Positions 17,866 to 54,507 of a stretch of 64,000 bases of DNA are shown here, one piece after another. Under the pieces are notes generated by a model. That model searched no databases and had not been told where the DNA came from. It saw nothing but the letters and a program-made list of their open reading frames with translations. Numbering within the stretch: position 1 is the stretch's first letter; each line of letters opens with the position of its first letter. The translations under genes and the position numbers were made by a program. Source of the stretch: Aureibaculum luteum (GTDB lineage Bacteria > Bacteroidota > Bacteroidia > Flavobacteriales > Flavobacteriaceae); NCBI RefSeq assembly GCF_003449015.1, contig NZ_QRGD01000002.1:124001-188000 (forward strand), in the 5' to 3' direction.

Positions 17866-17908
17866 TGACCTACGTCATTTTACGAAATATAGAGAAGGCA
17901 TAATTTTA
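17866..17908 (+). promoter_or_regulatory. stress-regulon operator A and -7 box
   Basis: Palindrome TGACCTACGTCA at 17866-17877, extended to an eight-base perfect arm on each side (AAAATGAC / GTCATTTT), then 23 bases, then TAATTTTA at 17901-17908. It is the first of the series and drives the 18055 gene through a 140-base leader. Confidence 0.75.
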
Positions 17909-17965
17909 CAGTTAAATAAATCAACCATAAAAGTTAGAATTTGAAGCGTCTGTAATTTCTTTAAA

Positions 17966-17975
17966 TGAACGTTCA
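17966..17975. promoter_or_regulatory. TetR-type palindrome in the leader
   Basis: TGAACGTTCA is a perfect ten-base palindrome located within the predicted transcript leader, about 80 bases before the 18055 start codon. Its form resembles operators of TetR-family repressors, which commonly control exporter operons such as the one downstream. No TetR gene is in the window. Confidence 0.35.
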
Positions 17976-18054
17976 CAGCATTAAAGTATAGTAACAGCAG
18001 ACGATACAATTAGAGTAAAGTAAATCATTAAATGAAATAATAAAAAAATAGATT

Positions 18055-18525
18055 ATGAATAATTTCAGATATAGACCAAAAGACAATTTTATTCAAGAGG
18101 CAAACTGGAAACAACTTTTTGTTCTTACAGAACATTGGAAATCTGATCTTTTGTTTTTTGCAGATGATATAAAATTTCTACATGATTTAATTGATAAATA
18201 TTTTCTATGGATAGCAAGAAAAGAACATATTGATAAGGTACAAGAGATAGAAATTAACTTGCTAAATGTAGATAGACAAAATTCTTTGTTATTAAAGAAA
18301 ACGAATAAACATCTAGAACATTTAGAAGCTTTAATTGATGATCCGTTTAAATATGATGCTTATGAATTTAGAAATGAACATGAGCAACTTGAAGATGATT
18401 TATCTGATTTCCTAAAATCTTTTAGAAAAAATAGAAAGGAAGTTTTTAGTATTACTGAATTTATAATTGATAAAGAAGAATTAGTAAGGCATTTAGACTT
18501 TAGTAAAATTAAAAATTATGCTTAA
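18055..18525 (+). CDS. uncharacterised helical protein, paralogue of the 44577 gene
   Basis: A 156-residue, highly charged, probably all-helical cytoplasmic protein without signal peptide or membrane segment. I do not recognise a named family. It shares a pattern with the protein at 44577-44984: an early tryptophan and aromatic-acidic block (HWKSDLLFFADDIKF here, WMDTVDFWKDEVRFF there), and a late HEQLEDDLSDFLKSFRKNRK-like helix. Both genes are under the palindromic stress operator. The macA-like gene follows after 93 bases, so this may be the first gene of the exporter operon. Confidence 0.7.
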   Translation: MNNFRYRPKDNFIQEANWKQLFVLTEHWKSDLLFFADDIKFLHDLIDKYFLWIARKEHIDKVQEIEINLLNVDRQNSLLLKKTNKHLEHLEALIDDPFKYDAYEFRNEHEQLEDDLSDFLKSFRKNRKEVFSITEFIIDKEELVRHLDFSKIKNYA

Positions 18526-18618
18526 AATATGTGATTCTATAGCTATAGGTTAACATTGACCTGTATCATATTAATTACAAATTCATATATAAAATTTTAC
18601 ATTTCAAAATTGAAGGAG

Positions 18619-19839: not shown

Positions 19840-19845
19840 AAAAAG

Positions 19846-22533: not shown

Positions 22534-22576
22534 TGACCATGGTCATTTCAAGAACGCTTCAATTCATTTAGCTTTG
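22534..22576 (+). promoter_or_regulatory. stress-regulon operator B and -7 box
   Basis: TGACCATGGTCA, a perfect 12-base palindrome at 22534-22545, then 23 bases, then TAGCTTTG at 22569-22576. The start codon of the next gene is 55 bases downstream. Confidence 0.8.
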
Positions 22577-22631: not shown

Positions 22632-23021
22632 ATGATTAAAGAAAACACAAAAACAAAAGAGCTCGGTATTTATATGGATCATTCAAAAGCAAAATTAATT
22701 GATTTACATTCTGAGAAAAATAGTTACACGATTACATCTGAATTTACTTTTGAAACAAAAGCAGAGGCCTTAACTAGAAGTGAAAACCTTATGCATAATA
22801 AACGACAACAAATGCAAGAGGAGTATTATGATAAAATTGCTCAAGTTATTTTGAAATATGATGATGTACTTCTTTTTGGTTTGACCAAAGCGAAAACAGA
22901 ACTTTTTAATTATCTGAATGAAGATTTACGTTTTAAAGATATTAAAATTAGTGTTGAGCCTGCCGATAAGTTAACGTTAAATCAACAAGATGCTTTTGTG
23001 AGAACATATTTTGAAAAATAA
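22632..23021 (+). CDS. uncharacterised stress protein, possibly eRF1/host-attachment-like fold
   Basis: A 129-residue soluble protein. The opening (KELGIYMDHSKAKLIDL) and the middle (YYDKIAQVILKYDDVLLFGLTKAKTELFNYL) follow the alternating strand-helix pattern of the bacterial eRF1-domain or host-attachment proteins: an early GIxMDxxKA strand and a later hydrophobic strand ending in a small-residue turn before a helix. The similarity is only to the pattern, so the call is tentative. The gene has its own stress operator and is not overlapped by neighbours. Confidence 0.6.
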   Translation: MIKENTKTKELGIYMDHSKAKLIDLHSEKNSYTITSEFTFETKAEALTRSENLMHNKRQQMQEEYYDKIAQVILKYDDVLLFGLTKAKTELFNYLNEDLRFKDIKISVEPADKLTLNQQDAFVRTYFEK

Positions 23022-23205: not shown

Positions 23206-23556
23206 ATGATTAAAGACTATTCAAAACACTATAGTAATCTTACTAAATTAATGCGTGAAATGGGTGCTGAAATGCCTGAAGTAATGGGTGGATTTAATAA
23301 GTTACACGAAGCTAGTATTAAAGAAGGTGTGCTCTCTTCAAAAAACAAAGAACTTATTGCATTAGGAATTGCCATAACGGTAAGGTGCGATGGCTGTATT
23401 GCCTTTCATGTGCACGATGCTTTAAGTTCAGGAGCAAGTTCAGAAGAAATTATGGAAACTATTGGTGTCGCTATTCTTATGGGAGGAGGACCTGCATTAG
23501 TGTATGGTTGCCAAGCCATGGAGGCCTTAAGTCAATTTGTGGTATTGGAAAGATAG
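23206..23556 (+). CDS. carboxymuconolactone decarboxylase / AhpD-like protein
   Basis: AhpD-like alkylhydroperoxidase-fold protein of 116 residues. The redox CxxC motif with downstream histidine is present (RCDGCIAFHVHDAL at about residues 60-73), preceded by the typical helix LSSKNKELIALGIAITV. Such proteins reduce peroxides or act as disulfide relays, usually as oligomers in the cytoplasm. A half palindrome (TGATGTAG) lies at 23116 but lacks its right arm. A second, longer AhpD-like protein with a membrane tail is at 46819. Confidence 0.88.
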   Translation: MIKDYSKHYSNLTKLMREMGAEMPEVMGGFNKLHEASIKEGVLSSKNKELIALGIAITVRCDGCIAFHVHDALSSGASSEEIMETIGVAILMGGGPALVYGCQAMEALSQFVVLER

Positions 23557-24487: not shown

Positions 24488-24530
24488 TGATCTAAGTCAT
24501 TTTAAATGTGCTGTTAAATTTAAATCTTTG
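24488..24530 (+). promoter_or_regulatory. stress-regulon operator C and -7 box
   Basis: TGATCTAAGTCA at 24488-24499, then exactly 23 bases, then AATCTTTG at 24523-24530 (one mismatch to TAnnTTTG). It precedes the UbiB-type kinase gene. Confidence 0.65.
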
Positions 24531-24676: not shown

Positions 24677-26359
24677 ATGGCAGGTTTAAAAATTCCAAAA
24701 CAACAGGAACTAAAAAGATATAACAAACTATTTGCTGTACTCACAAAATATGGCTTTGAGGATGTTATGGCTCACAACCAAATAAAAAAAATAATTCCCA
24801 AAAGTTATCTTAAAAAACATCCTGATACGCAAAAGAATCTTTCTTTTACAAAATACGAGCGTATACGAATGATGTTGGAAGAGTTGGGACCTACTTATGT
24901 GAAATTGGGACAAATATTTAGCAACAGAGAAGATATGTTGCCACCTGATTTAATAAAGGAACTTGTAAAGCTACAAGATCATGTATTGACATTAAAAAAT
25001 TTCAATATTAATGAAGTAGTTGAAAAGGAATTAAAAATAAATAGTACAGATTATTTTCAATCAATTGATACAACACCTTTAGCAGCAGCATCTCTAGCTC
25101 AAGTACATAAAGCAATATTATTAAACGGAAATGAAGTAGTATTAAAAGTACAACGGCCCGATATCAAAGAAACAATAGAAGCTGACATTTTGGTAATGAA
25201 ACAAGTTGCTAAAAGTTTAGAAAAACATAGCAGTCAAGCAAAAGCCTTTCAGCCCAAGCAAATAATAGCTTCTTTTGAAAAAAGTATTAGAGAAGAGCTT
25301 CAGTTTTTACAGGAAGTTGAAAACATGGAACATTTTGCTAAAGATTTTAAAGGCAATGCATCTATTTATGTTCCTAAAGTGTATCGAGAACTATCTACAG
25401 ACACGCTTATTTGTATGGAATTTATTGATGGAATTAAAGTTTCAGAAATTGATATGCTTACTTCGTTAAATATAGATTGTAGTGCTGTTGCTAAGGTTGG
25501 CGTAGATTTATATTTAGAACAGATATTAGAGCAAGGTTTTTTTCATGCCGATCCGCATCCTGGAAATATTTTTGTACTTCCAAAGACCCAACAAATTTGT
25601 TTTATTGATTTTGGAATGATGGGGTCAATTATGCCAAATGACAGAGAAACGTTAAGCGATCTCTTGTTATATTTTATGAAATATGATGTAAAAAAAATAA
25701 TTCAATTATTAGAGAAAATTGCAGTAAAAGCCAATATTGATGATTATAAAAAATTAGAGTATGATTTGTATGAATTGATAGTAGGAGTCAGTAATACTTC
25801 CATTAAAAATATCAGAATGGGGATTGTTCTTAATCAGTTTAAATCCGTTTTATATGGAAACCATATAGTTTTACCCCATTATATGTATATGCTCATTCGC
25901 GGTTTAATAATTATAGAAGGCGTAGGTTTAAAACTAGATCCTAAATTTAATATCACAGATAATTTAGAACCTTACACTACTAAAATCACGAAAAAGCGTT
26001 TCAGTCTAAAACGTTTGTTAAAAAAGAACTTCACAAAATTACAAGACCTAAACAGTCTCGCTGATTCATTACCAGATGACATTACTATCATTCTAAATAA
26101 AATTAAAGAAGGAAAACTAGTAATTGTACATAAGCATAAGGGCCTAAAAGAATTTCAAAGCACACTAAATAAAGCTTCTAATCGGTTAGTTTTTGCGGTT
26201 ATTATTGCCGCATTATCTATAGGTTCATCCATTTTAGTGATCGCTAAAATGCCTCCTTTGGTATATGGTATTCCTTTACTCGGAGCTATTGGTTTTATAC
26301 TCTCTGCATTTTTAGGATTTTATATCGTTATTTCCATTTTTAAGAATAAAGAGTATTAA
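24677..26359 (+). CDS. ABC1/UbiB-family atypical kinase
   Basis: Protein of 560 residues of the ABC1K/AarF/UbiB family, atypical kinases or ATPases that support ubiquinone or menaquinone synthesis and lipid transport. Visible are the KxGQ motif (YVKLGQIFSNREDMLP), the AAASLAQVHKA loop that replaces the P-loop, the lysine in VVLKVQRP, the catalytic loop FFHADPHPGNI and the metal motif IDFGMMG. Two C-terminal membrane helices anchor it. It starts a two-gene unit with the MgtC/DUF4010 gene 21 bases downstream and is under operator C. Confidence 0.93.
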   Translation: MAGLKIPKQQELKRYNKLFAVLTKYGFEDVMAHNQIKKIIPKSYLKKHPDTQKNLSFTKYERIRMMLEELGPTYVKLGQIFSNREDMLPPDLIKELVKLQDHVLTLKNFNINEVVEKELKINSTDYFQSIDTTPLAAASLAQVHKAILLNGNEVVLKVQRPDIKETIEADILVMKQVAKSLEKHSSQAKAFQPKQIIASFEKSIREELQFLQEVENMEHFAKDFKGNASIYVPKVYRELSTDTLICMEFIDGIKVSEIDMLTSLNIDCSAVAKVGVDLYLEQILEQGFFHADPHPGNIFVLPKTQQICFIDFGMMGSIMPNDRETLSDLLLYFMKYDVKKIIQLLEKIAVKANIDDYKKLEYDLYELIVGVSNTSIKNIRMGIVLNQFKSVLYGNHIVLPHYMYMLIRGLIIIEGVGLKLDPKFNITDNLEPYTTKITKKRFSLKRLLKKNFTKLQDLNSLADSLPDDITIILNKIKEGKLVIVHKHKGLKEFQSTLNKASNRLVFAVIIAALSIGSSILVIAKMPPLVYGIPLLGAIGFILSAFLGFYIVISIFKNKEY

Positions 26360-27727: not shown

Positions 27728-27770
27728 TGACCTAGGTCAGTGTCACTATTGTTAAAGCAAATTAATTTTG
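27728..27770 (+). promoter_or_regulatory. stress-regulon operator D and -7 box
   Basis: The best copy: TGACCTAGGTCA, a perfect palindrome at 27728-27739, 23 bases, then the full -7 consensus TAATTTTG at 27763-27770. Confidence 0.85.
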
Positions 27771-27824: not shown

Positions 27825-28097
27825 ATGAAAAAAATAAACTCAGAAGAAGCAAAAGTGATTGGAAATAATTTGGGTATCGATTGGAATGCTATTCGATTAG
27901 ACGAATTCACAAAAGGTGTAAATGTTGAATTTGAACATGGCACAAGATATCCAGAAACCAATGTGACTAATAATGATACAGCCTTAACAGGAAAAATAGC
28001 TTGGGCACATTTAAAAGAGTTTCCTGATTATTATACACGGTTAGAGAAAATGGAAAATAAAGCGGAAGCGTATTGGAAAGAACGAGAGTTAAACTAA
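27825..28097 (+). CDS. DUF5661-like small protein
   Basis: A 90-residue soluble protein. The signature of the DUF5661 group is recognisable: LGIDWNAIRLDEFTKGVNVE, then EHGTRYPETNVTNNDTALTG, then KIAWAHLKEFPDYYTRLEKM. The function of this family is unknown. It is a single-gene unit with its own perfect stress operator on each side (D upstream, E downstream for the ferritin operon), so it should be strongly co-induced with ferritin. Confidence 0.8.
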   Translation: MKKINSEEAKVIGNNLGIDWNAIRLDEFTKGVNVEFEHGTRYPETNVTNNDTALTGKIAWAHLKEFPDYYTRLEKMENKAEAYWKERELN

Positions 28098-28117: not shown

Positions 28118-28160
28118 TGACCTAGGTCAGTGTATTACAGTTAAGAGCTATCTAATTTTG
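28118..28160 (+). promoter_or_regulatory. stress-regulon operator E and -7 box
   Basis: TGACCTAGGTCA at 28118-28129, identical to operator D, 23 bases, then TAATTTTG at 28153-28160. It starts the ferritin operon. Confidence 0.85.
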
Positions 28161-28227: not shown

Positions 28228-28737
28228 ATGGAAACAAAATCAGAATTTTTAAGCGAAGCTATGGTTAAGTTACTAAATTATCGTGTGGAACAAGAAGAGT
28301 ATTCTTCAAGAATATACTTGGCTATGTCTACTTGGTTAGATGATAAGGGGTTTGTGGGAGCTTCCAAATTATTTAAACAATATAGCGATGAAGAAATTGT
28401 ACATGCAAATAAAGCACGAAAAATGCTTTTAGCAAACGGGTTACGACCTGTAACACCAGCTTTAAAACAACCAAAACAAGATTTTTTAAGTCTACCTGAT
28501 GTCATACAATCAGCATTGGCACATGAACAAGAAATTACAAGACAATGTTATGCCCTTACTAAAGCTGCCCATGACGAAGGTAATTTTATGGTAGTGGAAT
28601 TGGGCTTATGGTACTCTAAAGAACAAGCAGAGGAATTAAGCAAAGTACAGTACCTATTAGATCGTCTGGAAGCTTTTGGTGAAGAGTTAAGCATGTTGAG
28701 AAGACTAGATGATGAAATGGGACAATTGGCATCATAA
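28228..28737 (+). CDS. ferritin
   Basis: Iron-storage ferritin of 169 residues, forming a 24-subunit shell in the cytoplasm. The ferroxidase-centre residues appear in the expected helices: E in RVEQEEYSSRIYLAMS, the SDEEIVHANK pair of E and H, E in LAHEQEITRQ, and EQAEE near residue 133. It starts an apparent operon with the DUF1269-like protein, gpmA, three lipoproteins and HdeD, under operator E. Together with the Dps protein at 33536 it gives the regulon two iron-sequestering systems. Confidence 0.93.
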   Translation: METKSEFLSEAMVKLLNYRVEQEEYSSRIYLAMSTWLDDKGFVGASKLFKQYSDEEIVHANKARKMLLANGLRPVTPALKQPKQDFLSLPDVIQSALAHEQEITRQCYALTKAAHDEGNFMVVELGLWYSKEQAEELSKVQYLLDRLEAFGEELSMLRRLDDEMGQLAS

Positions 28738-30371: not shown

Positions 30372-30860
30372 ATGCGTATTGCAAATTTATCGATAATGGT
30401 AATTCTGGTAGGAAGCATTTTAACAAGTTGTGGCTCTGCTAAAACAAAAGCTATACATGGGTCAAAAAAAACTACCAATACAGCCAATATACCATTAAAT
30501 CAAAATGCTAAAGATACTGTTATAGATACTGAAATAACTAAAAAAGAAGGATGGGAAGAATTTAATATTGATTCTCAAAAAAACCTATTAAAAATAGAAA
30601 ATCAAATTGAAGCATTAAGAAGGGAGATTGCAAATCATGACAAAAAAAATCAAAAGAAAAAGATCAAAACACTGGATTCATTAGAAGAAAAAAAGAATAT
30701 ACTCAAATCGAGATTAGTTAAAATTAATAAAAGAATTAAATCAAATATAGAAGATATAAATAGAACACAAGAAGTAGTAACAATAGCTTTTGAAAAGGAC
30801 TTTGTTCAAGATTTAAATGAGCTTTTAATGGGGCTTAGAGATTTTTTGAAAAATAAATAA
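30372..30860 (+). CDS. stress lipoprotein 1 (coiled-coil, sll1863-like)
   Basis: A 162-residue predicted lipoprotein with signal ending LTSC. The mature part is a long lysine-rich coiled coil after a WEEFNIDSQ segment. It is the first and most divergent of three tandem paralogues; the 20 bases at 30414-30433 that encode the end of the signal peptide are identical in all three genes. The family resembles what is annotated in Bacteroidota as sll1863-type stress response proteins. It probably sits in the envelope; the mechanism is unknown. Confidence 0.72.
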   Translation: MRIANLSIMVILVGSILTSCGSAKTKAIHGSKKTTNTANIPLNQNAKDTVIDTEITKKEGWEEFNIDSQKNLLKIENQIEALRREIANHDKKNQKKKIKTLDSLEEKKNILKSRLVKINKRIKSNIEDINRTQEVVTIAFEKDFVQDLNELLMGLRDFLKNK

Positions 30861-30872
30861 AAATAGATAGTA

Positions 30873-33437: not shown

Positions 33438-33507
33438 TTAAAGTTTTCAAAAAAGATTTTAAACTGACATGGGTCAGTAATATAGTTTTCAGATTCAAAT
33501 ACCTTTG
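33438..33507 (+). promoter_or_regulatory. stress-regulon operator F with upstream A-rich block
   Basis: TGACATGGGTCA at 33465-33476, 23 bases, then TACCTTTG at 33500-33507. Upstream, the 26-base block starting TTAAAGTTTTCAAAAAAG (33438) recurs in the same phase before operators G, H and I. It drives the Dps gene. Confidence 0.8.
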
Positions 33508-36206: not shown

Positions 36207-36276
36207 TTAAAGTTTTCAAAAAAAGTTTTATACTGATGTAGGTCAGGGTTCTCACATTAGAACCACTATATCTTTG
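36207..36276 (+). promoter_or_regulatory. stress-regulon operator G with upstream A-rich block
   Basis: A-rich block TTAAAGTTTTCAAAAAAAG from 36207, palindrome TGATGTAGGTCA at 36234-36245, 23 bases, then TATCTTTG at 36269-36276. It drives the first BON gene. Confidence 0.8.
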
Positions 36277-37171: not shown

Positions 37172-37241
37172 TTAATAAATTCAAAAAAAGTTTAGAACTG
37201 ATCTAGGTCAGTGTTTCTTTTCACTTGCCATGATAATTTTG
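37172..37241 (+). promoter_or_regulatory. stress-regulon operator H with upstream A-rich block
   Basis: A-rich block from 37172 (TTAATAAATTCAAAAAAAG), palindrome TGATCTAGGTCA at 37199-37210, 23 bases, then TAATTTTG at 37234-37241. It drives the aldehyde dehydrogenase gene. Confidence 0.8.
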
Positions 37242-38991: not shown

Positions 38992-39061
38992 TTAAAATTT
39001 TCAAAAATAAGTTGATGCTGATGTAGGTCAGTGTCTTTATTCTAATGCTGATGTAATTTTG
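38992..39061 (+). promoter_or_regulatory. stress-regulon operator I with upstream A-rich block
   Basis: A-rich block from 38992 (TTAAAATTTTCAAAAATAAG), palindrome TGATGTAGGTCA at 39019-39030, 23 bases, then TAATTTTG at 39054-39061. The palindrome is identical to that of operator G, in front of the other close BON paralogue. Confidence 0.82.
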
Positions 39062-39848: not shown

Positions 39849-39891
39849 TGACCTTGGTCAGTAACTAATACTCTTTATCATACTAACTTTG
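39849..39891 (+). promoter_or_regulatory. stress-regulon operator J and -7 box
   Basis: TGACCTTGGTCA at 39849-39860, 23 bases, then TAACTTTG at 39884-39891. It drives BON gene 3 and lies directly against the preceding terminator, leaving no room for the A-rich block. Confidence 0.82.
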
Positions 39892-41881: not shown

Positions 41882-41924
41882 TGATATAGATCATTTTAGA
41901 TGGTGGTTTTCTAAAGTAATTTTA
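41882..41924 (+). promoter_or_regulatory. stress-regulon operator K and -7 box
   Basis: TGATATAGATCA at 41882-41893, 23 bases, then TAATTTTA at 41917-41924. It drives BON gene 4. Palindrome and -7 box are both weaker than in operators D to J. Confidence 0.7.
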
Positions 41925-41961
41925 CATGTATTAGTTATTGTTTAATTTAGAAGTAAGTAAA

Positions 41962-42644: not shown

Positions 42645-43406
42645 ATGCATATAATATCTTGGAATGTAAATGGAATACGTGCCATTGTAAAGAAGAATTT
42701 TGTTGAAAGTGTTAAAAAACTGAATCCAGATATTATTTGCTTGCAAGAGACAAGAGCTAGCGAAAAGGAAGTTGAAAAAGCATTATTACCTTTTAAAGAG
42801 TACTATCAATACTGCAACGCTGCAGATAAAAGTGGGTATTCGGGCACTACCATATTGAGTAAGTCAAAACCAGACTTTATAAAAAATGATTTGAACATTG
42901 CAGAACATTATACTGAAGGTAGAGTGCTATGCACCAGTTACCCAGATTTCTATTTGATAAATGTATATGTGCCTAATTCTGGACAGCAATTAGATCGCTT
43001 GGCATATCGAAAAAAATGGGATGCCGATTTTTTAATCTATTTAAAAGAGTTAGAGAAAACGAAACCTGTCATTGTTTGTGGCGATTTTAATGTAGCCCAT
43101 AATTCTATAGATCTGAAAAATGATAGATCTAATTATAACAAAACGGCAGGGTATACTCAGGTTGAAATTGATGGAATGGATAATTTAATAAAATCAGGCT
43201 TTGTAGATGCTTTTAGACATTTTTATCCCGATGAGGTTGCTTATACGTATTGGAGTTATCGCTTTAAAGCTAGAGAGCGAAATACCGGATGGCGAATTGA
43301 TTATTTTTTAGTTAATAAATCAATATTATCTAGAGTAAAAGCCGTTTCTATATATTCAGATATAATGGGGTCAGATCATTGTCCAATAGGTCTAGAAATT
43401 GAATAA
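42645..43406 (+). CDS. xth: exodeoxyribonuclease III
   Basis: AP endonuclease and 3' exonuclease of the ExoIII/EEP family, 253 residues. Motifs: SWNVNGIRAI, IICLQETRASE (metal Glu), YVPNSGQ, VCGDFNVAH (catalytic Asp and Asn), YTYWSYR, RIDYFLVN and the C-terminal GSDHCPIG with the catalytic histidine. It repairs abasic sites and oxidative 3' ends. Its position after BON gene 4 places it under operator K, so oxidative DNA repair appears to be part of the regulon. Confidence 0.95.
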   Translation: MHIISWNVNGIRAIVKKNFVESVKKLNPDIICLQETRASEKEVEKALLPFKEYYQYCNAADKSGYSGTTILSKSKPDFIKNDLNIAEHYTEGRVLCTSYPDFYLINVYVPNSGQQLDRLAYRKKWDADFLIYLKELEKTKPVIVCGDFNVAHNSIDLKNDRSNYNKTAGYTQVEIDGMDNLIKSGFVDAFRHFYPDEVAYTYWSYRFKARERNTGWRIDYFLVNKSILSRVKAVSIYSDIMGSDHCPIGLEIE

Positions 43407-44211: not shown

Positions 44212-44511
44212 TTAAACGTTTTGTTTAATAATTGAAAGAAGCTGTTCTTTGGTTTGTACTCCAGATTGACGCCAAACAATTTTTCCATCCTTAAATAAAA
44301 TCAATGTTGGTACACCTCTTACATTATAGCGTTGAGCTATAGGTTGGTTTTTATCAATATCTATTTTGATAATGCGAACCTTTCCATCAATTTCATTTGC
44401 TACTTGTTTTATTATGGGAGATTGTGCTTTACAAGGACCACACCATTCTGCATGAAAATCAACAAGTACGGGCTTATCGCCCTTAATTAGTTTACTGAAA
44501 TCTGCTTTCAT
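44212..44511 (-). CDS. thioredoxin
   Basis: Cytoplasmic thioredoxin, 99 residues. The active site is AEWCGPCKAQSP at about residues 20-31, the cis-proline lies in VRGVPTLILFKDG, and the buried aspartate in VLVDFHAEW. It reduces protein disulfides. It is in the operon of a sigma factor, a DnaJ protein and two unknown genes; a stable hairpin stands between it and the gene before it, so its level may be set separately. Confidence 0.93.
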   Translation of the reverse strand: MKADFSKLIKGDKPVLVDFHAEWCGPCKAQSPIIKQVANEIDGKVRIIKIDIDKNQPIAQRYNVRGVPTLILFKDGKIVWRQSGVQTKEQLLSIIKQNV

Positions 44512-44576: not shown

Positions 44577-44984
44577 TTATAGCTTTTTTGTATAATCAAA
44601 AACAACTCTTTTAAAGGCTTTAAACTCTTTTGTGAAATCTGCCATACGCAATGAAATCTCATGATGTTTTTCTCTGTAATCATCATCAGACAATCCTTTT
44701 TCAGCCAATTCTATTCTTGATAATAACTGTTCGTGCTCTACAATGCTCACTTCTAAATCGTCAAATAAATCAATGTGAACTTTATCTAGATTTTTTAGCA
44801 TCATTTCATATACTGGATCATTTTTCTTAGAAACCTCTTTTTTCTTTAATAAATCGTTGAAAAAACGAACTTCATCTTTCCAAAAATCTACGGTATCCAT
44901 CCATTCTTTACTCTCAAAATGTAAAACGTCTAACCCTGCTCCTAATAAGAATTCTGTTTTGGGGTTTAAAATTGTAGTGTTCAT
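44577..44984 (-). CDS. uncharacterised helical protein, paralogue of the 18055 gene
   Basis: A 135-residue, charged, probably all-helical cytoplasmic protein of no named family. It shares with the 18055 protein an early WMDTVDFWKDEVRFFNDLL block and a late HEISLRMADFTKEFKAFKR helix. Both members are controlled by the palindromic stress operator, one directly and this one as third gene of the sigma-DnaJ operon. It starts 11 bases after the DnaJ gene. Confidence 0.72.
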   Translation of the reverse strand: MNTTILNPKTEFLLGAGLDVLHFESKEWMDTVDFWKDEVRFFNDLLKKKEVSKKNDPVYEMMLKNLDKVHIDLFDDLEVSIVEHEQLLSRIELAEKGLSDDDYREKHHEISLRMADFTKEFKAFKRVVFDYTKKL

Positions 44985-44995: not shown

Positions 44996-45931
44996 TTAAT
45001 TTGATTTTATAGGTTCTTTTTTATGTAACTGTTGTAATTCTTTAAATAAATTCTCTTCTTCTTTTGTAAGATTTTTTGGTAAATTCACATTTAGTTTGAC
45101 TAATAAATCACCATAAGTGGATGGTTTACGATAGTTAGGCATTCCTTTGCCTTTAAGTCTAAGTGTCTTACCTGAATTGCTGTTTTTTGGTACTGTAATA
45201 TTTAGTGATCCAGAAAGGGTGGGTACATTTATCTTACCACCCAAAATTGCGGTATATAAATCTACGTCGGCATTATATAAAAGATCATCCCCTCTTCTTT
45301 TAAATCGATGATCTGGCTGAACTTTTAATATGATATATAAATCACCTCGGTTTCCACCTTTAACACCTTTTTGTCCTTTACCTTTAATTTTTAATTGCAA
45401 TCCATCATACGAGCCAGGTTTTATGGTAATACGTAACTTTTCATTATGTATTTCAAAGGTTCGTTTACTTCCTTTATAGGCTTCTAGCAGCGTAATGGGC
45501 ATTTCTGCTTTCGTATCACCTCCTGAAAAAGAAGATTGATTTGCTCTACCACCAAAAAAGGTTTCAAAAAAGCTAGAAAAATCTTCACCACCAGCGGCAC
45601 CTTGTCCAAAAATATCAGAAGGATCTCCTTGAGCGTATCTCGATTTTCTTCCACTTTGATTCGCTTGGTTTGCATACTCACGCCAATTATCTCCGGTGTT
45701 TTGATAAGCATCCCAATTAGAGCCTAGTGTGTCATATTTCTCACGCTTTTCTTTATCACTAAGCACTTCATTTGCTTCATTCAATTCCTTGAACTTATCT
45801 TCAGCAGTTTTATCATCAGGATTTTTATCAGGATGATATTTCCCTGCCAATTTTCTATATGCTTTTTTTATCTCTTTTGAAGAGGCATCTTTATTAACTC
45901 CTAATATTTTATAATAATCCTTGTAATTCAT
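44996..45931 (-). CDS. DnaJ/CbpA-type co-chaperone
   Basis: J-domain protein of 311 residues. The N-terminal J domain has [33 protein letters not shown] in part, with the essential HPD. A glycine/phenylalanine-rich region follows at about 75-140. The C-terminal substrate-binding domains (about 140-300) lack the DnaJ zinc finger, which makes it CbpA-like. It stimulates DnaK in the cytoplasm. The ATG at 45931 is preferred; the frame extends to a TTG at 45940. It begins 12 bases after the sigma-factor gene. Confidence 0.93.
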
Positions 45932-45943
45932 TTTCAACAAGTT

Positions 45944-46717
45944 TTATTTGTTAATAGCATATCTATTGAAAAAACTTAATTGTAGTGCTTTTCTAGCGTC
46001 TTCTAATAATTTTTCGACCTGTGTAATACTACTATTTCTTATTTCTGCAATTTCTTTTGCTGTAAATTTATAATTGGTAAACAATTCAAAAACAGAACTC
46101 ATAGCCAAAGGTAATTGTTGAAGTACCATAGCTATTTGGGTATGAATTCTTTCTTTACTTATTTCTTTATCAAGTTTTTTAACTATTTTATTCTCTTTAT
46201 TTTCTATAAACACATGGTTTAAAGTGTAATCATTATGGTTATATGACATGTCGTCTAACTCTTCAATCAATAAGAAATCACCACCAGCATCAACAGTGTA
46301 GTTTTCTTCCATTTCATCCCACTCAGGTTTAGTGTACGTATCAATATTTTTAAAGAAAAGTTCGTCAAATTCTTCTTCTACAATGGTATCTTCCAATAAT
46401 TGATTGGTTTTTTTAAATAACCATAAATAGAAATCTTTCTGATTTTCAAACCCGTCTATATGATCATAAATTTCTATAAAAAGTTGATCAATAAAATCAT
46501 CAGCTTTATATTTATTTTTTGAAAAATGTCCATTTTTTATGGCTGAATTTAACCTACCAACTATATATTTATTTATCTCAGGTAAAATTTTCAAGACCAA
46601 TTCATTAAAAGATTCCTTGTCTTCTTCTTTTTTAAGTTGAACAAGATCGGGAAATACTTGAGTAATAATCACACGAAACTCTTTGTGCTGTTTGTTATAT
46701 TTTACCATGTCCTCCAT
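45944..46717 (-). CDS. sigma-70-like regulatory protein
   Basis: A 257-residue protein with a sigma-70 region 2-like part (INKYIVGRLNSAIKNGHFS, then KADDFIDQLFIEIYDHIDGF and FYLWLFKKTNQLLED) and a C-terminal region 4-like helix-turn-helix (LQQLPLAMSSVFELFTNYKF, then TAKEIAEIRNSSITQVEKLL). Between them lies an acidic insert of about 80 residues. It may redirect RNA polymerase or act as a regulator of the operon it heads (DnaJ, unknown, thioredoxin, unknown). It is under operator L. Confidence 0.8.
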   Translation of the reverse strand: MEDMVKYNKQHKEFRVIITQVFPDLVQLKKEEDKESFNELVLKILPEINKYIVGRLNSAIKNGHFSKNKYKADDFIDQLFIEIYDHIDGFENQKDFYLWLFKKTNQLLEDTIVEEEFDELFFKNIDTYTKPEWDEMEENYTVDAGGDFLLIEELDDMSYNHNDYTLNHVFIENKENKIVKKLDKEISKERIHTQIAMVLQQLPLAMSSVFELFTNYKFTAKEIAEIRNSSITQVEKLLEDARKALQLSFFNRYAINK

Positions 46718-46742: not shown

Positions 46743-46785
46743 TAAAGGTGTGAACATATAAGCAAAATTAAAATGACCTAGATCA
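46743..46785 (-). promoter_or_regulatory. stress-regulon operator L and -7 box
   Basis: On the minus strand: TGATCTAGGTCA (46785-46774), 23 bases, then CACCTTTA (46750-46743), a two-mismatch -7 box. It starts the sigma-DnaJ-thioredoxin operon 26 bases before the start codon. Confidence 0.68.
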
Positions 46786-47625: not shown

Positions 47626-47829
47626 CTAAGCCGTAATGGCAAAAGTTACTTTTGTGGTTACACGGTATTCTGCTACCTGATTGTTATTAACTGTTGCCTG
47701 CATATCTTTTACATAAACAGATTTAATGTTTTTTACTGTTTTGGAAACTTCAGTAACAACATTTTTAACCGCATCATCAAAACTTACGGTAGAATTTCCT
47801 AATACTTCAATTACTTTTAATACTGACAT
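47626..47829 (-). CDS. dodecin, flavin-binding storage protein
   Basis: A 67-residue dodecin. Twelve copies form a hollow sphere that binds flavins pairwise, buffering free FMN/FAD and limiting photo-oxidative damage. The family pattern is visible: KVIEVLGNSTVSFDDAVKNV at the start, KNIKSVYVKDMQATVNNNQV in the middle and EYRVTTKVTFAI at the end. It is a single-gene unit under operator M. Confidence 0.94.
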   Translation of the reverse strand: MSVLKVIEVLGNSTVSFDDAVKNVVTEVSKTVKNIKSVYVKDMQATVNNNQVAEYRVTTKVTFAITA

Positions 47830-47858: not shown

Positions 47859-47901
47859 TAAAGGTAGAAATCAAATTTATCATACAAAATGATCTTGATC
47901 A
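47859..47901 (-). promoter_or_regulatory. stress-regulon operator M and -7 box
   Basis: On the minus strand: TGATCAAGATCA (47901-47890), 23 bases, then TACCTTTA (47866-47859), one mismatch to TAnnTTTG. It drives dodecin. Confidence 0.7.
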
Positions 47902-48115: not shown

Positions 48116-48610
48116 CTATACATCTTCCAATGCAGTTTTTAAATGCTGTAAGTCATCATCAAAACCTCTTATGATCAATAAATAATTCCCATTATGTAAC
48201 ATCTCTATAAAAGTATTTACATTTGTTTCTTGAGCACCTAAGCCTCTTAAAATACCATTGAGCCCTACTGAAATACCTCCTAATGCTTTTCCATTAATTT
48301 CGTGCATAAACAATGATGTTAATGAGCCAATAATATATACAGTACCTATTTCAGGGTTTTTAAAGACACCAAATTCGATAGAAGATCCGAGTACTTTTTT
48401 CCAATATTCTTTTAATTGTTTCTCAAATTGAATTGGATCTTTTTTGTTTTTAAAAGACGCTTCATTGGTAAACATACTAAGAATAGATAATTGAGAATTT
48501 ATTTCGCTATCATTCTTTAAAATATCTATAGAGGTTACTAATTTCTTAAATTGCGAATATGACTTTATAAAAATATGTTTCTTCTTCGCATGTTGCAAGC
48601 TATAACTCAT
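48116..48610 (-). CDS. uncharacterised stress-linked protein
   Basis: A 164-residue protein starting at the ATG at 48610 (MSYSLQHAKKKHIFIKSY); the frame extends to a TTG at 48616. It has a helical N-terminal half and a C-terminal half with a glycine-rich hydrophobic stretch (GKALGGISVGLNGILRGLG) followed by a strand-helix ending (LLIIRGFDDDLQHLKTAL). That ending resembles proteins with a glycine-zipper and a ferredoxin-like stress domain, but I cannot assign a family. It is transcribed away from the YtxH operon from the shared operator N. Confidence 0.68.
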   Translation of the reverse strand: MSYSLQHAKKKHIFIKSYSQFKKLVTSIDILKNDSEINSQLSILSMFTNEASFKNKKDPIQFEKQLKEYWKKVLGSSIEFGVFKNPEIGTVYIIGSLTSLFMHEINGKALGGISVGLNGILRGLGAQETNVNTFIEMLHNGNYLLIIRGFDDDLQHLKTALEDV

Positions 48611-48658
48611 AATCAATTTTTAAAAGTATTATCATTTTTCCAGTAATACTTATGGGAG

Positions 48659-48732
48659 CTAAATTAATAGGTTAAATAATTATAATGAATGACCTGGGTC
48701 ATTTTAAAAGATAATTTACCTGTTTATTTTTG
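48659..48732. promoter_or_regulatory. shared divergent stress operator N with two -7 boxes
   Basis: TGACCTGGGTCA at 48690-48701. On the plus strand TATTTTTG follows after 23 bases (48725-48732). On the minus strand TAATTTAG, one mismatch, also follows after 23 bases (48666-48659). One palindrome therefore appears placed to activate both the 48116 gene and the YtxH operon. Confidence 0.75.
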
Positions 48733-48796: not shown

Positions 48797-49129
48797 ATGT
48801 CAAATACTAGTGAAAATGCATTATTCGCACTGTTAACAGGAGTTGCTATTGGGGCTGGAATCGGAATTCTTTACGCACCTGATAAAGGTAAAAAAACCAG
48901 AAAAAGAATTAAACAAAAAACAGAAGATACCAAGCACATTATTTCTGATCGAATTTCTCATGCTAAAGAAGAATTAACAAAAGCCGTTAATGAAAAAAAA
49001 GAAGAATTTGAACAAAAATTAGATGATACTATTTCAACAATGAGTGGAAAAGCTGAGGATATTATTGATAGTTTAGAAAATAAGTTAGAAGAACTTAAAA
49101 CCAAAAATACTCACTTACAAAAAAACTAG
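48797..49129 (+). CDS. YtxH-domain protein
   Basis: A 110-residue protein of the YtxH/general stress family. One N-terminal membrane or glycine-rich segment (LFALLTGVAIGAGIGILYAPDKGKKTR in part: the GILYAPxxGKxTR motif is diagnostic) is followed by a long charged coiled coil. It is probably anchored in the inner membrane. It is the first of three tightly packed genes (next start 2 bases after its stop). Confidence 0.9.
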   Translation: MSNTSENALFALLTGVAIGAGIGILYAPDKGKKTRKRIKQKTEDTKHIISDRISHAKEELTKAVNEKKEEFEQKLDDTISTMSGKAEDIIDSLENKLEELKTKNTHLQKN

Positions 49130-49709: not shown

Positions 49710-50780
49710 TTATCCAAATTCTGCTATTTCTTTTAGAGTTTCTTTATTTAATATAACGAGTCTTCTGCCAGATTCTACACCAATTAAACCTTCGTTTTTG
49801 AATTCGGTTAACATTCTAATTGCTGTTTCTGTAGCAGTTCCTATGAGTCCTGCAAAATCTTCTCTAGGGATACTAATACCTTTATGTTTTTGATCTTTAA
49901 TCATTCCTTTTGCATCAAGTTCCAGTAGTGTTTTAGCTGCTTTTTGACGCACAGTTGCAAAAGCCATATCTACTAGTTGTTCTTGTAAATGAATCATATT
50001 ATTTGAGATCATACTAATAAACTTATTAGAAACGTCTCTATTATCATATAATAGTTTTGTGAAATCTGTTTTAGGAATTTCACAAATTTCAGCATCTTCT
50101 AATACGGTAGCTGATTCTATATAGGTTCTATTATCACCTAAAAGAGACAGTTGTCCTATAAAATCTCCATCTCTGTATAAACCTGTAACAAATTCTTTCC
50201 CAGTTTCTGTACATCTATAGGTTTTTACCGTGCCACTATGAATAAAAAACATTCGATGTGCCGCATCTCCTTCTGCAAAAATTTCTTCTTTGTTTTTATA
50301 AAGTTTAAGGCTTCTGTCTTTAGAAAGATCTTGTAAATCTAAATATTTTGATGCTTCTTTTAAAAAGTCATTTACACCCTCAATATTATTAGAAAATTTT
50401 CTTTTCAAAAAGGCATTCTTTTTTAAACGACTTTTTATAGCACCTAACAGTTCATCTTCTTCAAAAGGTTTTGTTAAATAGTCATCAGCTCCTAAATTCA
50501 TACCTTTTCTCATATCCGCTTTTTCAGCTTTCGCTGTTAAAAAGATAAATGGAATCCCTGCCGTCTTTACGTTTTTACTCAAACTTTCAAAGACTCCATA
50601 TCCATCTAATTCTGGCATCATAATATCACATAGAATGACATCTGGCATAAACTGATTCGCCTTTACAACGCCAACTTTTCCGTTTTCGGCAGTGCTCACT
50701 ATATAATTTTCCAGTTCTAAAATGTCGGCTATATTTTCACGAACATTTTGATTGTCTTCTATTAAGAGTATTTTTTTCAT
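49710..50780 (-). CDS. REC-CRP/FNR response regulator, candidate master regulator of the stress regulon
   Basis: A 356-residue fusion. Residues 1-120 are a receiver domain with phosphoacceptor D52 (LCDIMMPELDG), T82 and K103. Residues about 150-265 are a cyclic-nucleotide-binding-like beta-roll (EEIFAEGDAAHRMFFIHSG, GDFIGQLSLLGDNRTYIE) without the arginine-serine pair needed for cAMP. Residues about 275-350 are a CRP-type winged helix with the recognition helix TATETAIRM; E318 and R322 match the CRP/FNR residues that read TGA. It overlaps its kinase by 4 bases. The TGA-N6-TCA operators across the island fit this helix; that link is inference. Confidence 0.93.
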   Translation of the reverse strand: MKKILLIEDNQNVRENIADILELENYIVSTAENGKVGVVKANQFMPDVILCDIMMPELDGYGVFESLSKNVKTAGIPFIFLTAKAEKADMRKGMNLGADDYLTKPFEEDELLGAIKSRLKKNAFLKRKFSNNIEGVNDFLKEASKYLDLQDLSKDRSLKLYKNKEEIFAEGDAAHRMFFIHSGTVKTYRCTETGKEFVTGLYRDGDFIGQLSLLGDNRTYIESATVLEDAEICEIPKTDFTKLLYDNRDVSNKFISMISNNMIHLQEQLVDMAFATVRQKAAKTLLELDAKGMIKDQKHKGISIPREDFAGLIGTATETAIRMLTEFKNEGLIGVESGRRLVILNKETLKEIAEFG

Positions 50781-52438
50781 TTTTTTTCATTTTTTATTGG
50801 AAGCTCCACATAAAAAGTGGTTCCAATATTTAAATCACTTTTTAAGGTAATAGTACCTCCCATTAATTCTATATATGACTTTACGATATTCAGTCCTAAT
50901 CCAGTTCCTTCAATATGTGTCGTGTTCTTAGCACGAAAAAAACGTTTAAATAAATTCGTTTGATCCTCTTCAGGGATACCAACCCCTTGATCTGTTATTT
51001 CAAATAATAAACGTTGCTTGTCGGTTTTTATATTAAAAATTATCTCCTTTTCTTCTTCAGAGTATTTTATGGCATTAGATAACAAATTAAAAACAATATG
51101 TTTCAAAAATTTTTGATCTAAAAATACCTCAATACTTGGTTGTTTATAATTCAAGGTTATGGTTTGTCCATTCTTTTTAATACCTTCAATTTCTTCAATT
51201 AAAGAATTTGAAAATTCTATAAAATCAAATGATACAGGTTCAGCAACTACTTGACCTTCTTGTAATTTACTCAATGATAGGAAATCATTGAGAATGATAA
51301 CTAAATTTTTAACACTTGACCTTATTTTAGATACATAATTTAATCTTCTGTCCTCATGGCCAGGAGCATTTAATTTTTCAATTAATATGGCAGAAGATAA
51401 TATGGCACTTAAAGGAGTTCTAAATTCATGAGAGGCCATTGAAATAAACCGTGATTTTAATTCACTCAATTCCTTCTCTTTTTTTAATGTATTTAATATT
51501 TCAATCTCAATTTCTTTTTGATAAGATATATTATTATATACCAACAATACTTCTTCTATTTTTTTATCTATATTTATAAGTGGTGTGGTATTGACCATAT
51601 ATGTTCTATCTTGAAATTTAACTTCAAAAGAACAATGTTCTCCTTTTAAGGTTTTTTCAATATGACTTTTAACTTTTGTGCTTACCTCTTGTGGTACTAT
51701 TTGAACATTACCAATAGTATCTCCTATTTTTACGATTTCTCTAAACCCTAAATCGTCTAACTCTTCTCCTTCAATAAATACAATTTTTAAATTAGCATTG
51801 ACAACAACAACAAATCCCTTAGGGAAATTTTGTGCAATGTTAGAAAGTAAAATTCTACTAGATAAAATTCTGTTTTCGGCTGCTTTGGTTAGTTGTATTT
51901 GATCTCCCAAACTTAAATTAGACTCCACTAATTTTTGTACCGTAGAGGTGAGTTCCAGGGTTCGTTCCATTACTTTTTCTTCGAGAGCGAAGGCATGAGC
52001 AAGGTCTTGAATTTTGGTAGAATTAATAGCACTTAAGGCCAATTTTTGTTTAGCAAGCAAACGCTCAGAAATATCAATAATAAAAACAATTAGTCCTTGA
52101 ATACCATCAATTTTTATTGTATTTAAATTTATTTCTATGGGAAATTTTGAATTGTCTTTTTTTATACCAAAAACATCCAAATCTTTTCCAAAACACTTAT
52201 TTTTGAGCTCTAGGAAATTGGTTGCATTAGTACCTTCTTTATTAAGTAATAATTCCTTTGAGATAAGCTTTTCTATATTCCTTTCCAGTAGTTTATTCGT
52301 TTCATAACCAAACATGGTTTCGCTAGCAGGATTCGCCTTAATGATGAACCCATTAGGGTCTAAAACTAAAATACCTTCGAAAGAAGCGTTAAAAATGCTT
52401 TGTAAAATGTCTTCGTTTTCTAATTCATCTATTACCAT
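50777..52438 (-). CDS. soluble PAS-PAS histidine kinase
   Basis: A 553-residue kinase without membrane segments, so it senses a cytoplasmic signal. PAS domain 1 covers about 10-125 (ILQSIFNASFEGILVLDPNG), a coiled coil about 130-185, a second PAS-like domain about 195-305, HisKA about 328-395 with phospho-acceptor H337 (MASHEFRTPLSA), and the HATPase domain to the end (NLLSNAIKYS, ITDQGVGIPEED, GTGLGLNIVKSYIELMGG). It overlaps the response-regulator gene by 4 bases, making a clear two-component pair. A -7 box (minus-strand TAAATTTG, 52484-52477) is upstream; no stress palindrome is seen there. Confidence 0.93.
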   Translation of the reverse strand: MVIDELENEDILQSIFNASFEGILVLDPNGFIIKANPASETMFGYETNKLLERNIEKLISKELLLNKEGTNATNFLELKNKCFGKDLDVFGIKKDNSKFPIEINLNTIKIDGIQGLIVFIIDISERLLAKQKLALSAINSTKIQDLAHAFALEEKVMERTLELTSTVQKLVESNLSLGDQIQLTKAAENRILSSRILLSNIAQNFPKGFVVVVNANLKIVFIEGEELDDLGFREIVKIGDTIGNVQIVPQEVSTKVKSHIEKTLKGEHCSFEVKFQDRTYMVNTTPLINIDKKIEEVLLVYNNISYQKEIEIEILNTLKKEKELSELKSRFISMASHEFRTPLSAILSSAILIEKLNAPGHEDRRLNYVSKIRSSVKNLVIILNDFLSLSKLQEGQVVAEPVSFDFIEFSNSLIEEIEGIKKNGQTITLNYKQPSIEVFLDQKFLKHIVFNLLSNAIKYSEEEKEIIFNIKTDKQRLLFEITDQGVGIPEEDQTNLFKRFFRAKNTTHIEGTGLGLNIVKSYIELMGGTITLKSDLNIGTTFYVELPIKNEKK

Positions 52439-52484: not shown

Positions 52485-52508
52485 TAAATACTTTCTTTAG
52501 AAAATCTC

Positions 52509-53561
52509 TTAATTTTTTTTGATTTCCATTTTTCTTAACTGAGGTAAGGCATTTGGATACGATTTTTTAATAAAATCAATTAATTCTTCTCTAATTTGAC
52601 ATCGTAAATCCCATGTGTCAGAAGCGTTTTTCGCACTGAATGCTGCTCTAAGTTCCATGGAATGGACATCAGAATCTGTTACTAATAAGTTTGCCTCATT
52701 TTTATCCCATAAAGGATTATTATTTAAAATATCCAATAATTTCGCTCTTAATTCTTCAACAGGAAAGGTATAATCAACGTATAGAAAAACGGTTCCGATA
52801 AGGTCAGCGGAGTTAAAGGTCCAGTTTACAAACGGTTTATCATTAAAATAACTTAAGGGTAATACCAATCTACGTTTATCCCATATTTTTATAACCACAT
52901 AGGTAAGGGTAATGTCTTCTACCTCGCCAAATTCACCTTCAATAACAACTTCATCATCAATTTTAATAGGTTGGGTAAAGGCAATTTGAAACCCAGTAAT
53001 TAAGTTTGCGATTGATTTTTGTGCGGCTACACCAACAATAATCCCAATAACACCGGCAGATGTTAATATGGTAGTGCCTAATTTTTTAGCAGCAGGGATA
53101 TTCCATAAAATAGCAGAACAAGCCAGTGTGATAATTATTATGATGGAAATACTCTTTATAAAGCGGAGTTGTGTTAGTACTTTTCTGTCTTTCGTTTTAT
53201 GATTGGTGTCAATGCTAAATTTTTGTTTTACAATTTCTTCAATTGCATTTATGGATGCAATTACTATCCATGAAAAATTGATTATAATAAGGGCTTCTAT
53301 AACCTTGTGCCACAGCGGAATTAGTTTTAAATATAATAGGAACCCATATATAAATAAAATGGGTAATAAAAACATTGCAGGTGTTTTTAAATGCTTTAGA
53401 AGTTGTTTTTTTAAAATGGTTGGTTTACGTTGGTTACCAAGTTTTAAAATTGTAAAAATTATCCATCTTAATGCTAAACCTAAAAGAATACTAGCTACTA
53501 TTATTACTAGATAGGTAAGCCATGATTCTTCGCCAAGAAATTTTGAAATACTATTTACCAT
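52509..53561 (-). CDS. MscS-type mechanosensitive channel
   Basis: Small-conductance mechanosensitive channel of 350 residues. Four membrane helices precede the pore-lining helix and gate (TTILTSAGVIGIIVGVAAQK, then SIANLITGFQIAFTQP), followed by the beta domain (IDDEVVIEGEFGEVEDITL, then RRLVLPLSYFNDKPFVNWTF) and a cytoplasmic alpha/beta domain. It releases solutes on osmotic down-shock. It lies between the two-component pair and the patatin gene without a stress palindrome of its own. Confidence 0.92.
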   Translation of the reverse strand: MVNSISKFLGEESWLTYLVIIVASILLGLALRWIIFTILKLGNQRKPTILKKQLLKHLKTPAMFLLPILFIYGFLLYLKLIPLWHKVIEALIIINFSWIVIASINAIEEIVKQKFSIDTNHKTKDRKVLTQLRFIKSISIIIIITLACSAILWNIPAAKKLGTTILTSAGVIGIIVGVAAQKSIANLITGFQIAFTQPIKIDDEVVIEGEFGEVEDITLTYVVIKIWDKRRLVLPLSYFNDKPFVNWTFNSADLIGTVFLYVDYTFPVEELRAKLLDILNNNPLWDKNEANLLVTDSDVHSMELRAAFSAKNASDTWDLRCQIREELIDFIKKSYPNALPQLRKMEIKKN

Positions 53562-53676
53562 ATTCTTTCCTTCAAAATATTATTTCTTATCAAAGTAATT
53601 GATAAAAATCATTCAATGATAAGCCTTATAAATTTGTGTCTTTTAGTCATGATATTTAAATTATGTGGCAAGTATA

Positions 53677-54444
53677 TTAGTTATCAATAAATAGTTTATT
53701 CTTTTTCAATAACGCTATTGTAGAGGTATAACCAATTTCAAAAATAGCTTGGACATTATTCATACTAAAGGTACTATAATCGCTTAAAACCTCTGGTTTT
53801 ACAATTAAATCGCAATCTGAAAATTTAGCGGCTGACTCCGCAACAGATTTTATTTTATAGGCTCTTTCCACAACATTATAAGAGTGTTTTAAATTTTCAA
53901 TTTCAATTTTTTTTAATGGATTTACAAACACCCCAATTATTTTGTCACAATCATTTTTTAAAGGTTCGACAGGAAAATTATTTAGTGTACCACCATCTAC
54001 ATAATAAGAACCTTCAATTTCCATTGGAGTAAAAACACCAGGAAAAGAAGCAGAGGCTAAAACGACTCTAATCAGCTCTCCTGTATTAAAAATCTTTAAA
54101 GTACCTTTTACGATATCGGTAGCAGTTATATAAAGTGGTTTTTGCAACGCAGCAAAATTATCTTCCTTAAAATATACTTTAAAAGAATTATAGAATTTAT
54201 CGGTATCAATAAACCCCGGTTTTCTATAAGCATACTTATGTCTATTAAAAAGAGTAATGGTTTTAAAGAAATTCAACATTTCAGACCAGTCAACACCAGC
54301 CGCATATAAAGCACCAACAATAGCCCCAGCACTTGTACCTGAAATGTGAGAAGGGTGAATTTTGTGTTCAGACAACGCTTTTATTACACCAATATGTGCA
54401 GCTCCTCTTGCTCCTCCACCAGATAATACTAAGCCAATATTCAT
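53677..54444 (-). CDS. patatin-like phospholipase (RssA-like)
   Basis: Serine lipase of 255 residues. The oxyanion motif GLVLSGGGARGAAHIGV is at the N-terminus, the nucleophile elbow GTSAGAIVGALYAAG follows at about residue 37, and the catalytic aspartate is in YVDGGTLNNFP at about 148. It would release fatty acids from phospholipids or acyl-CoA, at the inner face of the membrane or in the cytoplasm as no signal peptide is seen. It is monocistronic under operator O, the last one of the island. Confidence 0.92.
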   Translation of the reverse strand: MNIGLVLSGGGARGAAHIGVIKALSEHKIHPSHISGTSAGAIVGALYAAGVDWSEMLNFFKTITLFNRHKYAYRKPGFIDTDKFYNSFKVYFKEDNFAALQKPLYITATDIVKGTLKIFNTGELIRVVLASASFPGVFTPMEIEGSYYVDGGTLNNFPVEPLKNDCDKIIGVFVNPLKKIEIENLKHSYNVVERAYKIKSVAESAAKFSDCDLIVKPEVLSDYSTFSMNNVQAIFEIGYTSTIALLKKNKLFIDN

Positions 54445-54464
54445 ACCTTTTCAATTTATAACAA

Positions 54465-54507
54465 CAAAGGTATTGCGAAATTTATTAGTTAAAAATGACA
54501 GAAGTCA
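54465..54507 (-). promoter_or_regulatory. stress-regulon operator O and -7 box
   Basis: On the minus strand: TGACTTCTGTCA (54507-54496), flanked by AA and TT, 23 bases, then a perfect TACCTTTG (54472-54465), 21 bases before the patatin start codon. Confidence 0.78.

Follow-up and report, generated by a model that had tools for sequence, protein, structure and literature searches.

We analysed a 64,000-nucleotide stretch of the Aureibaculum luteum genome (contig NZ_QRGD01000002.1, positions 124,001 to 188,000; hereafter, the window), in which the genes of an island on both strands, between positions 17866 and 54507, are preceded by a palindrome of the form TGA-N6-TCA and, 23 bases further on, by a box resembling TAnnTTTG. 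The same island holds a two-component pair on the minus strand. The proposed regulator (49710..50780, 356 amino acids; 49710 below) has Pfam matches to a receiver (REC), a cNMP-binding fold (cNMP_binding, 9.2e-21) and a CRP helix-turn-helix (HTH_Crp_2, 1.2e-12), and its gene overlaps by 4 bases that of the partner histidine kinase (50777..52438, 553 amino acids, minus strand; PAS, HisKA and HATPase_c in Pfam; 50777 below). The gene for an MscS-type channel (52509..53561, minus strand; Pfam MS_channel_2nd) probably belongs to one operon with both. Judged from sequence, the island is likely to be the regulon of this two-component system, with 49710 as a response regulator having a CRP/FNR-type output. 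It is best described as a putative CRP/FNR regulon under direct two-component control, resembling FixL-FixJ-FixK with the last two components fused.

The preliminary description of this DNA listed 15 promoters with the palindrome at a fixed spacing, counted from the end of TGA-N6-TCA to the first base of the box; together with the minus face of the site at 48690, these make 16 promoter faces. The palindrome was present in all 16, and the box 23 bases on read TAnnTTTG in 10 and TAnnTTTA in 3, so that the box was as described in 13 of the 16 (TAnnTTT[G/A]). The departing boxes, one or two letters off, were those of 24488 (AATCTTTG), of 46774 on the minus strand (CACCTTTA) and of the minus face of 48690 (TAATTTAG). 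At every face an open reading frame (ORF) started 11 to 146 bases past the box. In the full window, which holds 38 copies of TGA-N6-TCA, TAnnTTTG occurred 10 times at spacing 23 and at most once at every other spacing from 0 to 59, and Markov-1 sequences (n = 200) gave a mean of 0.04 and a maximum of 1 match at spacing 23. A scan of the whole genome, proposed earlier as a measure of enrichment, gave 33 matches versus 0 for the pattern read backwards. When the spacer was left free between 13 and 33 bases and the palindrome was tightened to TGAC-N4-RTCA, the spacing was exactly 23 in 14 of 16 matches in the same genome and in 13 of 18 and 11 of 18 matches in two other genomes of the genus. The same-genus genomes G001 and G002 keep island sites, 10 and 11 of them, respectively, with the full pattern, and the letters within the spacers have changed. 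Against strict fixity stands one site of G001, the equivalent of 54496, with a spacer of 22 bases. The A+T richness of the genome (31% G+C) would favor an origin of the motif by chance or composition, but the controls with the reversed pattern, other spacings, Markov sequences and six scrambled half-sites exclude it, and we regard the probability of such an artefact as negligible. The earlier claim that the spacing lies beyond chance was thus confirmed.

The predicted operator-promoters are given here as operator and box, separated in each case by 23 bases. On the plus strand, they lie at 17866..17908 (TGACCTACGTCA, TAATTTTA) ahead of 18055-18525, which has no family; at 22534..22576 (TGACCATGGTCA, TAGCTTTG) ahead of 22632-23021 (no family) and then 23206-23556 (CMD/AhpD-like); in a weaker form at 24488..24530 (TGATCTAAGTCA, AATCTTTG) ahead of an ABC1/UbiB-type kinase gene (24677-26359); at 27728..27770 and 28118..28160 (each TGACCTAGGTCA, TAATTTTG) ahead of genes for a DUF5661 protein (27825-28097) and a ferritin (28228-28737), respectively; and at 33465..33507 (TGACATGGGTCA, TACCTTTG) ahead of a Dps-like ferritin gene (33536-34012). 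Further along this strand, triple-BON proteins are encoded behind the sites at 36234..36276 (TGATGTAGGTCA, TATCTTTG; gene 36288-36965), 39019..39061 (TGATGTAGGTCA, TAATTTTG; gene 39099-39752) and 39849..39891 (TGACCTTGGTCA, TAACTTTG; gene 39929-40597), an aldehyde dehydrogenase (37267-38670) is encoded behind 37199..37241 (TGATCTAGGTCA, TAATTTTG), and the site at 41882..41924 (TGATATAGATCA, TAATTTTA) precedes genes for a BON protein (41938-42618) and an Exo_endo_phos protein (42645-43406). The site at 48690..48732 (TGACCTGGGTCA, TATTTTTG) stands ahead of a YtxH protein gene (48797-49129), while its minus face, whose box is TAATTTAG, is directed towards 48116-48616, which has no family.

On the minus strand, a weaker predicted operator-promoter at 46743..46785 (the 46774 site; TGATCTAGGTCA, CACCTTTA) is followed by 45944-46717, a DnaJ gene (44996-45940), 44577-44984 (no family) and a thioredoxin gene (44212-44511). 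The first of these genes is weakly similar to extracytoplasmic function (ECF) sigma factors (TIGR02937, 38.1 bits, under the cut-off of 42.9), and its product might be a sigma factor that belongs to the regulon. Also on this strand, the 47890 site (47859..47901; TGATCAAGATCA, TACCTTTA) precedes a dodecin gene (47626-47829), and the 54496 site (54465..54507; TGACTTCTGTCA, TACCTTTG) precedes a proposed target that encodes a patatin-like phospholipase according to Pfam (53677..54444) and possibly also drives the regulator operon. The first genes behind the sites thus gave Pfam matches to ferritin, Dps-like ferritin, four BON proteins, aldehyde dehydrogenase, dodecin, YtxH, patatin and the ABC1 (UbiB-type) kinase, and the following genes to DnaJ, thioredoxin, a CMD/AhpD-like protein and an Exo_endo_phos nuclease; matching families were found for all targets named in the preliminary description (ferritin, Dps, BON, dodecin, chaperone, thioredoxin, AhpD, ExoIII and UbiB kinase).

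The primary sigma factor of Bacteroidota is unusual and recognizes a -33/-7 promoter, and how activators work on it is little known. In Flavobacterium psychrophilum, the sigma-A box TAnnTTTG spans -12 to -5 according to a transcription-start map (PMC9723704). With the box at these positions and a 23-base spacer, the palindrome would run from -47 to -36 and have its centre at -41.5, in agreement with the earlier estimate of a centre near -41. CRP and FNR occupy this position in class II activation, and the assignment of the palindrome-box arrangement to class II CRP/FNR activation appears sound if the box of the island lies where it does in F. psychrophilum. The same description held that the usual -33 element was removed. 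Among 54 sites, however, T was found at the four positions after the palindrome in 80, 78, 61 and 59%, and since this T tract sits at the place of the -33 element, the element would be weakened rather than removed. By its letters, the box of the island sites is an ordinary sigma-A box; an alternative sigma promoter was not found at these sites.

The features of 49710 and its relatives are consistent with a phosphorylation-controlled activator. Named genomes were scanned for relatives, and of 584 loci the 80 best, each centred on the regulator gene, were used; they come from Flavobacteriaceae, Cytophagales, Chitinophagales, Saprospiraceae and other groups, and 2 of the records (L103 and L112) are labelled outside Bacteroidota. 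In the alignment, the receiver of 49710 keeps D9, D52, T82 and K104, and 64 of the 80 relatives fitted a rough motif covering three of the four residues. The recognition helix reads E-T-A-I-R. An N-terminal cysteine cluster of the iron-sulfur (Fe-S) FNR type was not found in 49710, which has the receiver at its N-terminus instead, and the positions that we take to be the cyclic AMP contacts of CRP (E72 and R82-S83) are, by eye, not kept. None of the best 60 of 284 matches in a PDB sequence search spanned both the receiver and the CRP parts, and the best 25 of 103 NCBIfam matches each covered one half; the AlphaFold model (mean predicted local distance difference test score, 72.9; predicted template modelling score, 0.40) is one from which the domain arrangement is not readable. 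The genome encodes two REC-CRP proteins among a total of seven HTH_Crp_2 matches, namely 49710 and a paralogue on contig C40 that is about 46% identical. That paralogue forms a second PAS-kinase/REC-CRP pair amid 23-base sites (L038 and L039; C40:158-198 kb), and around it, as read by eye, lie Usp genes, a HemN-like gene, an Rrf2-like gene and a cluster that looks like that of an N2O reductase. A search of the open-access literature with few terms found no receiver-CRP regulon described in Bacteroidota, which is weak evidence of absence.

The kinase/REC-CRP pair occurs widely across Bacteroidota. In 70 of the 80 loci, an ORF no shorter than 250 codons ended at the regulator start, and a kinase H-box was present in 69 of these 70; of 148 genomes drawn from the phylum, 23 had full-length regulator matches, all of them in the class to which the window belongs. 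The 23-base rule was found in the relative loci as well, with 59 exact sites (TGA-N6-TCA 23 bases before TAnnTTTG) in 35 of the 80, compared to at most 6 sites at any other spacing from 10 to 39 (spacing 22, with 6, was the next commonest) and at most 2 at any spacing from 18 to 28 for the six scrambled half-sites. When TTTA was allowed at the end of the box, 82 sites stood at spacing 23, 80 of them with an ORF start within 350 bases, versus 53 sites (39 with an ORF) at 27 other spacings summed. Counted by ORF, a 23-base site lay upstream of 67 of 1,261, versus a mean of 0.78 for the 27 other spacings. The 79 proteins encoded behind the sites included 15 Usp, 10 PAS kinases (which would mostly come from the regulator's own operon), 4 BON, 3 COX1 and FixO, 3 YtxH, 3 MscS, 2 CMD and 2 FixS proteins. 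Usp ORFs carried a site more often (14 of 70) than other ORFs of these loci (53 of 1,191; P = 7e-6), and among 67 random control ORFs from the same loci, Usp was absent from the first 25 of 117 families listed. Regardless of sites, ccoN-like cbb3 oxidase genes were held by 19 of the 80 loci, Usp genes by 34, HemN genes by 7 and BON genes by 4, counts that have no independent background.

Partner kinases were compared for features of haem-based sensing. A pattern for the proximal haem histidine was found in 49 of the 70 partner kinases, compared to 1.15 in shuffled sequences, and another, tighter pattern was found in 37 of 70 versus 0.1; a loose histidine pattern that fitted 56 of 70 had been dropped in favor of these tighter patterns with shuffled controls. 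Five partner kinases carry the FixL signature. The PAS domain of the L098 kinase is nearest to FixL (E = 1.5e-28) and that of the L093 kinase to DosP (1.4e-13) and FixL (2.5e-11), and the N-terminal PAS domain of 50777 is itself nearest, in the PDB, to DosP (E = 1.4e-4) and FixL (3.8e-4). The F. psychrophilum study reports that cbb3 oxidase and haem synthesis are induced under oxygen limitation (PMC9723704). The FixL/DosP-like PAS domains of the kinases, taken together with the company of Usp, cbb3 oxidase and hemN genes, point to an oxygen or redox signal; low oxygen or redox state was probably the ancestral signal of the family, from which the window pair would have moved to another input.

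In the mechanism that we propose, the PAS histidine kinase 50777 would sense a signal and phosphorylate the receiver of 49710, the active 49710 dimer would bind TGA-N6-TCA through its CRP helix-turn-helix with the centre at -41.5, and an ordinary sigma-A promoter (TAnnTTTG) would be activated by class II contact. In many members of the family, haem PAS domains like those of FixL and DosP would sense low oxygen or redox state; the window pair would represent a derived branch, with a G+C-rich operator core and a kinase without the haem histidine. The scheme would be like FixL-FixJ-FixK with FixJ and FixK fused, making two proteins in all. The output of FixJ is of the LuxR type, and FixK, which has no receiver, is a protein of its own, whereas these two roles are not split in the island, where the single protein 49710 holds both the receiver and the CRP output. 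The cascade known from Alphaproteobacteria (described in PMC4999443) and the island are otherwise alike in the order of PAS kinase, response regulator and CRP/FNR-type activator, in the company of cbb3 oxidase, hemN and Usp and in the FixL-type PAS domains of some partner kinases, and they differ in the Bacteroidota -7 box of the promoter and in the haem histidine missing from the window kinase. The island also shares with class II promoters of Escherichia coli CRP and FNR its TGA/TCA half-sites, a predicted site centre of -41.5 and the lack of need for a proper upstream core element. E. coli CRP is set by cyclic AMP and FNR by an Fe-S cluster, whereas here activity would be set by receiver phosphorylation, and the box is TAnnTTTG. 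DosS/DosT-DosR, the dormancy regulon of Mycobacterium, likewise places Usp, ferritin-type and chaperone genes under two-component control with a link to low oxygen, but DosR has a LuxR-type output domain, unrelated to that of 49710, and another site.

Which protein reads the sites was approached through the operator core, using a GG-core pattern (TGAYNNNGGTCA at spacing 23). In 60 genomes of the family, this operator gave 38 matches in the 25 with a full-length regulator and 8 in the 35 without it, and its control gave 0 in all 60; 22 of the 38 matches lay within 50 kb of a regulator gene (13 of 26 with our own genome excluded; rough binomial P = 2e-12). Unlinked relatives of targets kept the site too: two relatives of the 39099-39752 BON protein in G072, one of them about 275 kb from the regulator, and an 83% identical Dps relative in G027, on another contig than the regulator, all had it. 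Core position 5 or 8 was G or C at 12 of the 13 sites compared from the window and at 32 of 36 sites in Flavobacteriaceae-type loci, versus 6 of 13 sites in the paralogue area and 4 of 16 from two genomes that lack the regulator; the core letters of the window sites differed from those of these two genomes (P = 5e-4). In the same genome, AT-rich versions of the site precede hemN, N2O-reductase, Rnf and PFOR-type genes, as named by eye. Most likely, several CRP/FNR paralogues share the TGA-N6-TCA frame at -41.5 and the core letters sort them; FNR-like proteins may read the bare motif too. A rival reading assigns the island to an FNR-like regulon, with L031 (C40:230.4 kb, beside a cbb3 operon) as the main activator and 49710 modulating a subset or acting elsewhere. 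L031 is nearest to Fnr, with a score of 87.8 bits that falls short of the cut-off of 228, its helix reads E-S-A-I-R, and the cbb3 operon beside it has TGA-N6-TCA 23 bases from GATCTTTG. (In the divergent arrangement of this operon and the FNR-like gene, at L190:5817-15065, the site overlaps the predicted start of the first cbb3 gene, and therefore the true start is probably further in.) Moreover, among class-level genomes, the bare motif gave 210 matches in the 23 with a full-length regulator and 84 in the 14 without it, or 9.1 versus 6.0 per genome (P = 0.26), with reversed controls totalling 16 and 11. The motif is therefore not peculiar to one stress regulon, and general-motif counts were rejected as evidence for the regulator because genomes without it hold the motif as well. 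The tracking of GG-core matches with the regulator gene and the difference in core letters argue against L031, and we consider this reading unlikely. Readings in which the palindrome is bound by a factor outside the CRP/FNR family, or in which the sites are repressor sites, are highly improbable: the TGA/TCA half-sites, the predicted -41.5 centre and the CRP-type regulator close by are all as expected for CRP/FNR activators, and repression would work without a set distance between site and box.

Several observations weigh against 49710 as reader of the sites or against an oxygen signal. Besides the bare motif in genomes without the regulator, the helix of L031 and that of L036 (E-S-L-S-R) are similar to that of 49710, and so the helix does not single 49710 out; helix differences were rejected as proof of the site reader for this reason. 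G070 has a close relative of the regulator yet no GG-core match, Dps relatives of 59 and 51% identity in G017 and G029, both with the regulator, had no site, and the G+C core fades outside the genus in what is a small, hand-typed comparison set. Among the close Dps relatives tested with the target relatives, 2 of 5 (L161 and L162) were without a site, and a site with a proper box was present in 0 of 26 distant Dps-type loci (L163 to L188). The kinase 50777 and the kinase of the paralogue both lack the haem histidine, and since the 80 loci were picked as best matches centred on the regulator, their gene company has no independent background. The earlier naming of 49710 as the regulator thus stands as far as its fitting domains and the relatives amid the same sites elsewhere go, and is weakened where the bare motif occurs in genomes without it. 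The preliminary description also likened the island to a sigma-S or sigma-B regulon, and a true general-stress regulon replacing those factors, in which 49710 answers general stress or energy depletion and not oxygen, would suit targets such as Dps, ferritin, OsmY-like BON, dodecin, DnaJ, thioredoxin and YtxH as well as a window kinase that, without the haem histidine, need not sense oxygen. Dps, OsmY-like BON and ferritin are indeed target types of sigma-S and sigma-B regulons, but the island sites keep a sigma-A box, and the pair's relatives lie beside cbb3 oxidase and Usp genes with FixL/DosP-like PAS domains in many partner kinases; the likeness was therefore not upheld as stated, and we regard a general-stress regulon as a minority reading, if a somewhat better one than control by L031. 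To our knowledge, aerobic Bacteroidota have neither sigma-S nor sigma-B. We suggest tentatively, and with less assurance than for the regulon itself, that Bacteroidota possess a widespread oxygen/redox and survival regulator of their own, a receiver-CRP fusion driven by FixL/DosP-like PAS kinases that follows the 23-base rule and activates sigma-A promoters without a normal -33 element, and that in this genus its duplicated pair captured a large stress-protection island with a G+C-core operator and took on the job of sigma-S.

A fixed, phylum-wide class II arrangement would offer a direct rule for finding activated promoters, and it would tie a conserved, unnamed two-component pair to a gene set, suggesting how survival genes and microaerobic respiration might be coordinated in aerobic Bacteroidota. 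Some small proteins without a family, several of them encoded behind sites, are distantly alike (18055-18525, plus strand; 44577-44984, minus strand; L038:18705-19142; L041:13349-13768), with single-comparison E values of 6e-7 and 3e-9 in the pairs tested and the fourth protein judged by eye. Elsewhere in the window, 54764-56857 (minus strand) encodes a 697-amino-acid protein for which Pfam gave no family at E 0.01, and 30372-31934 (plus strand) encodes three tandem, similar-looking lipoproteins of no family.

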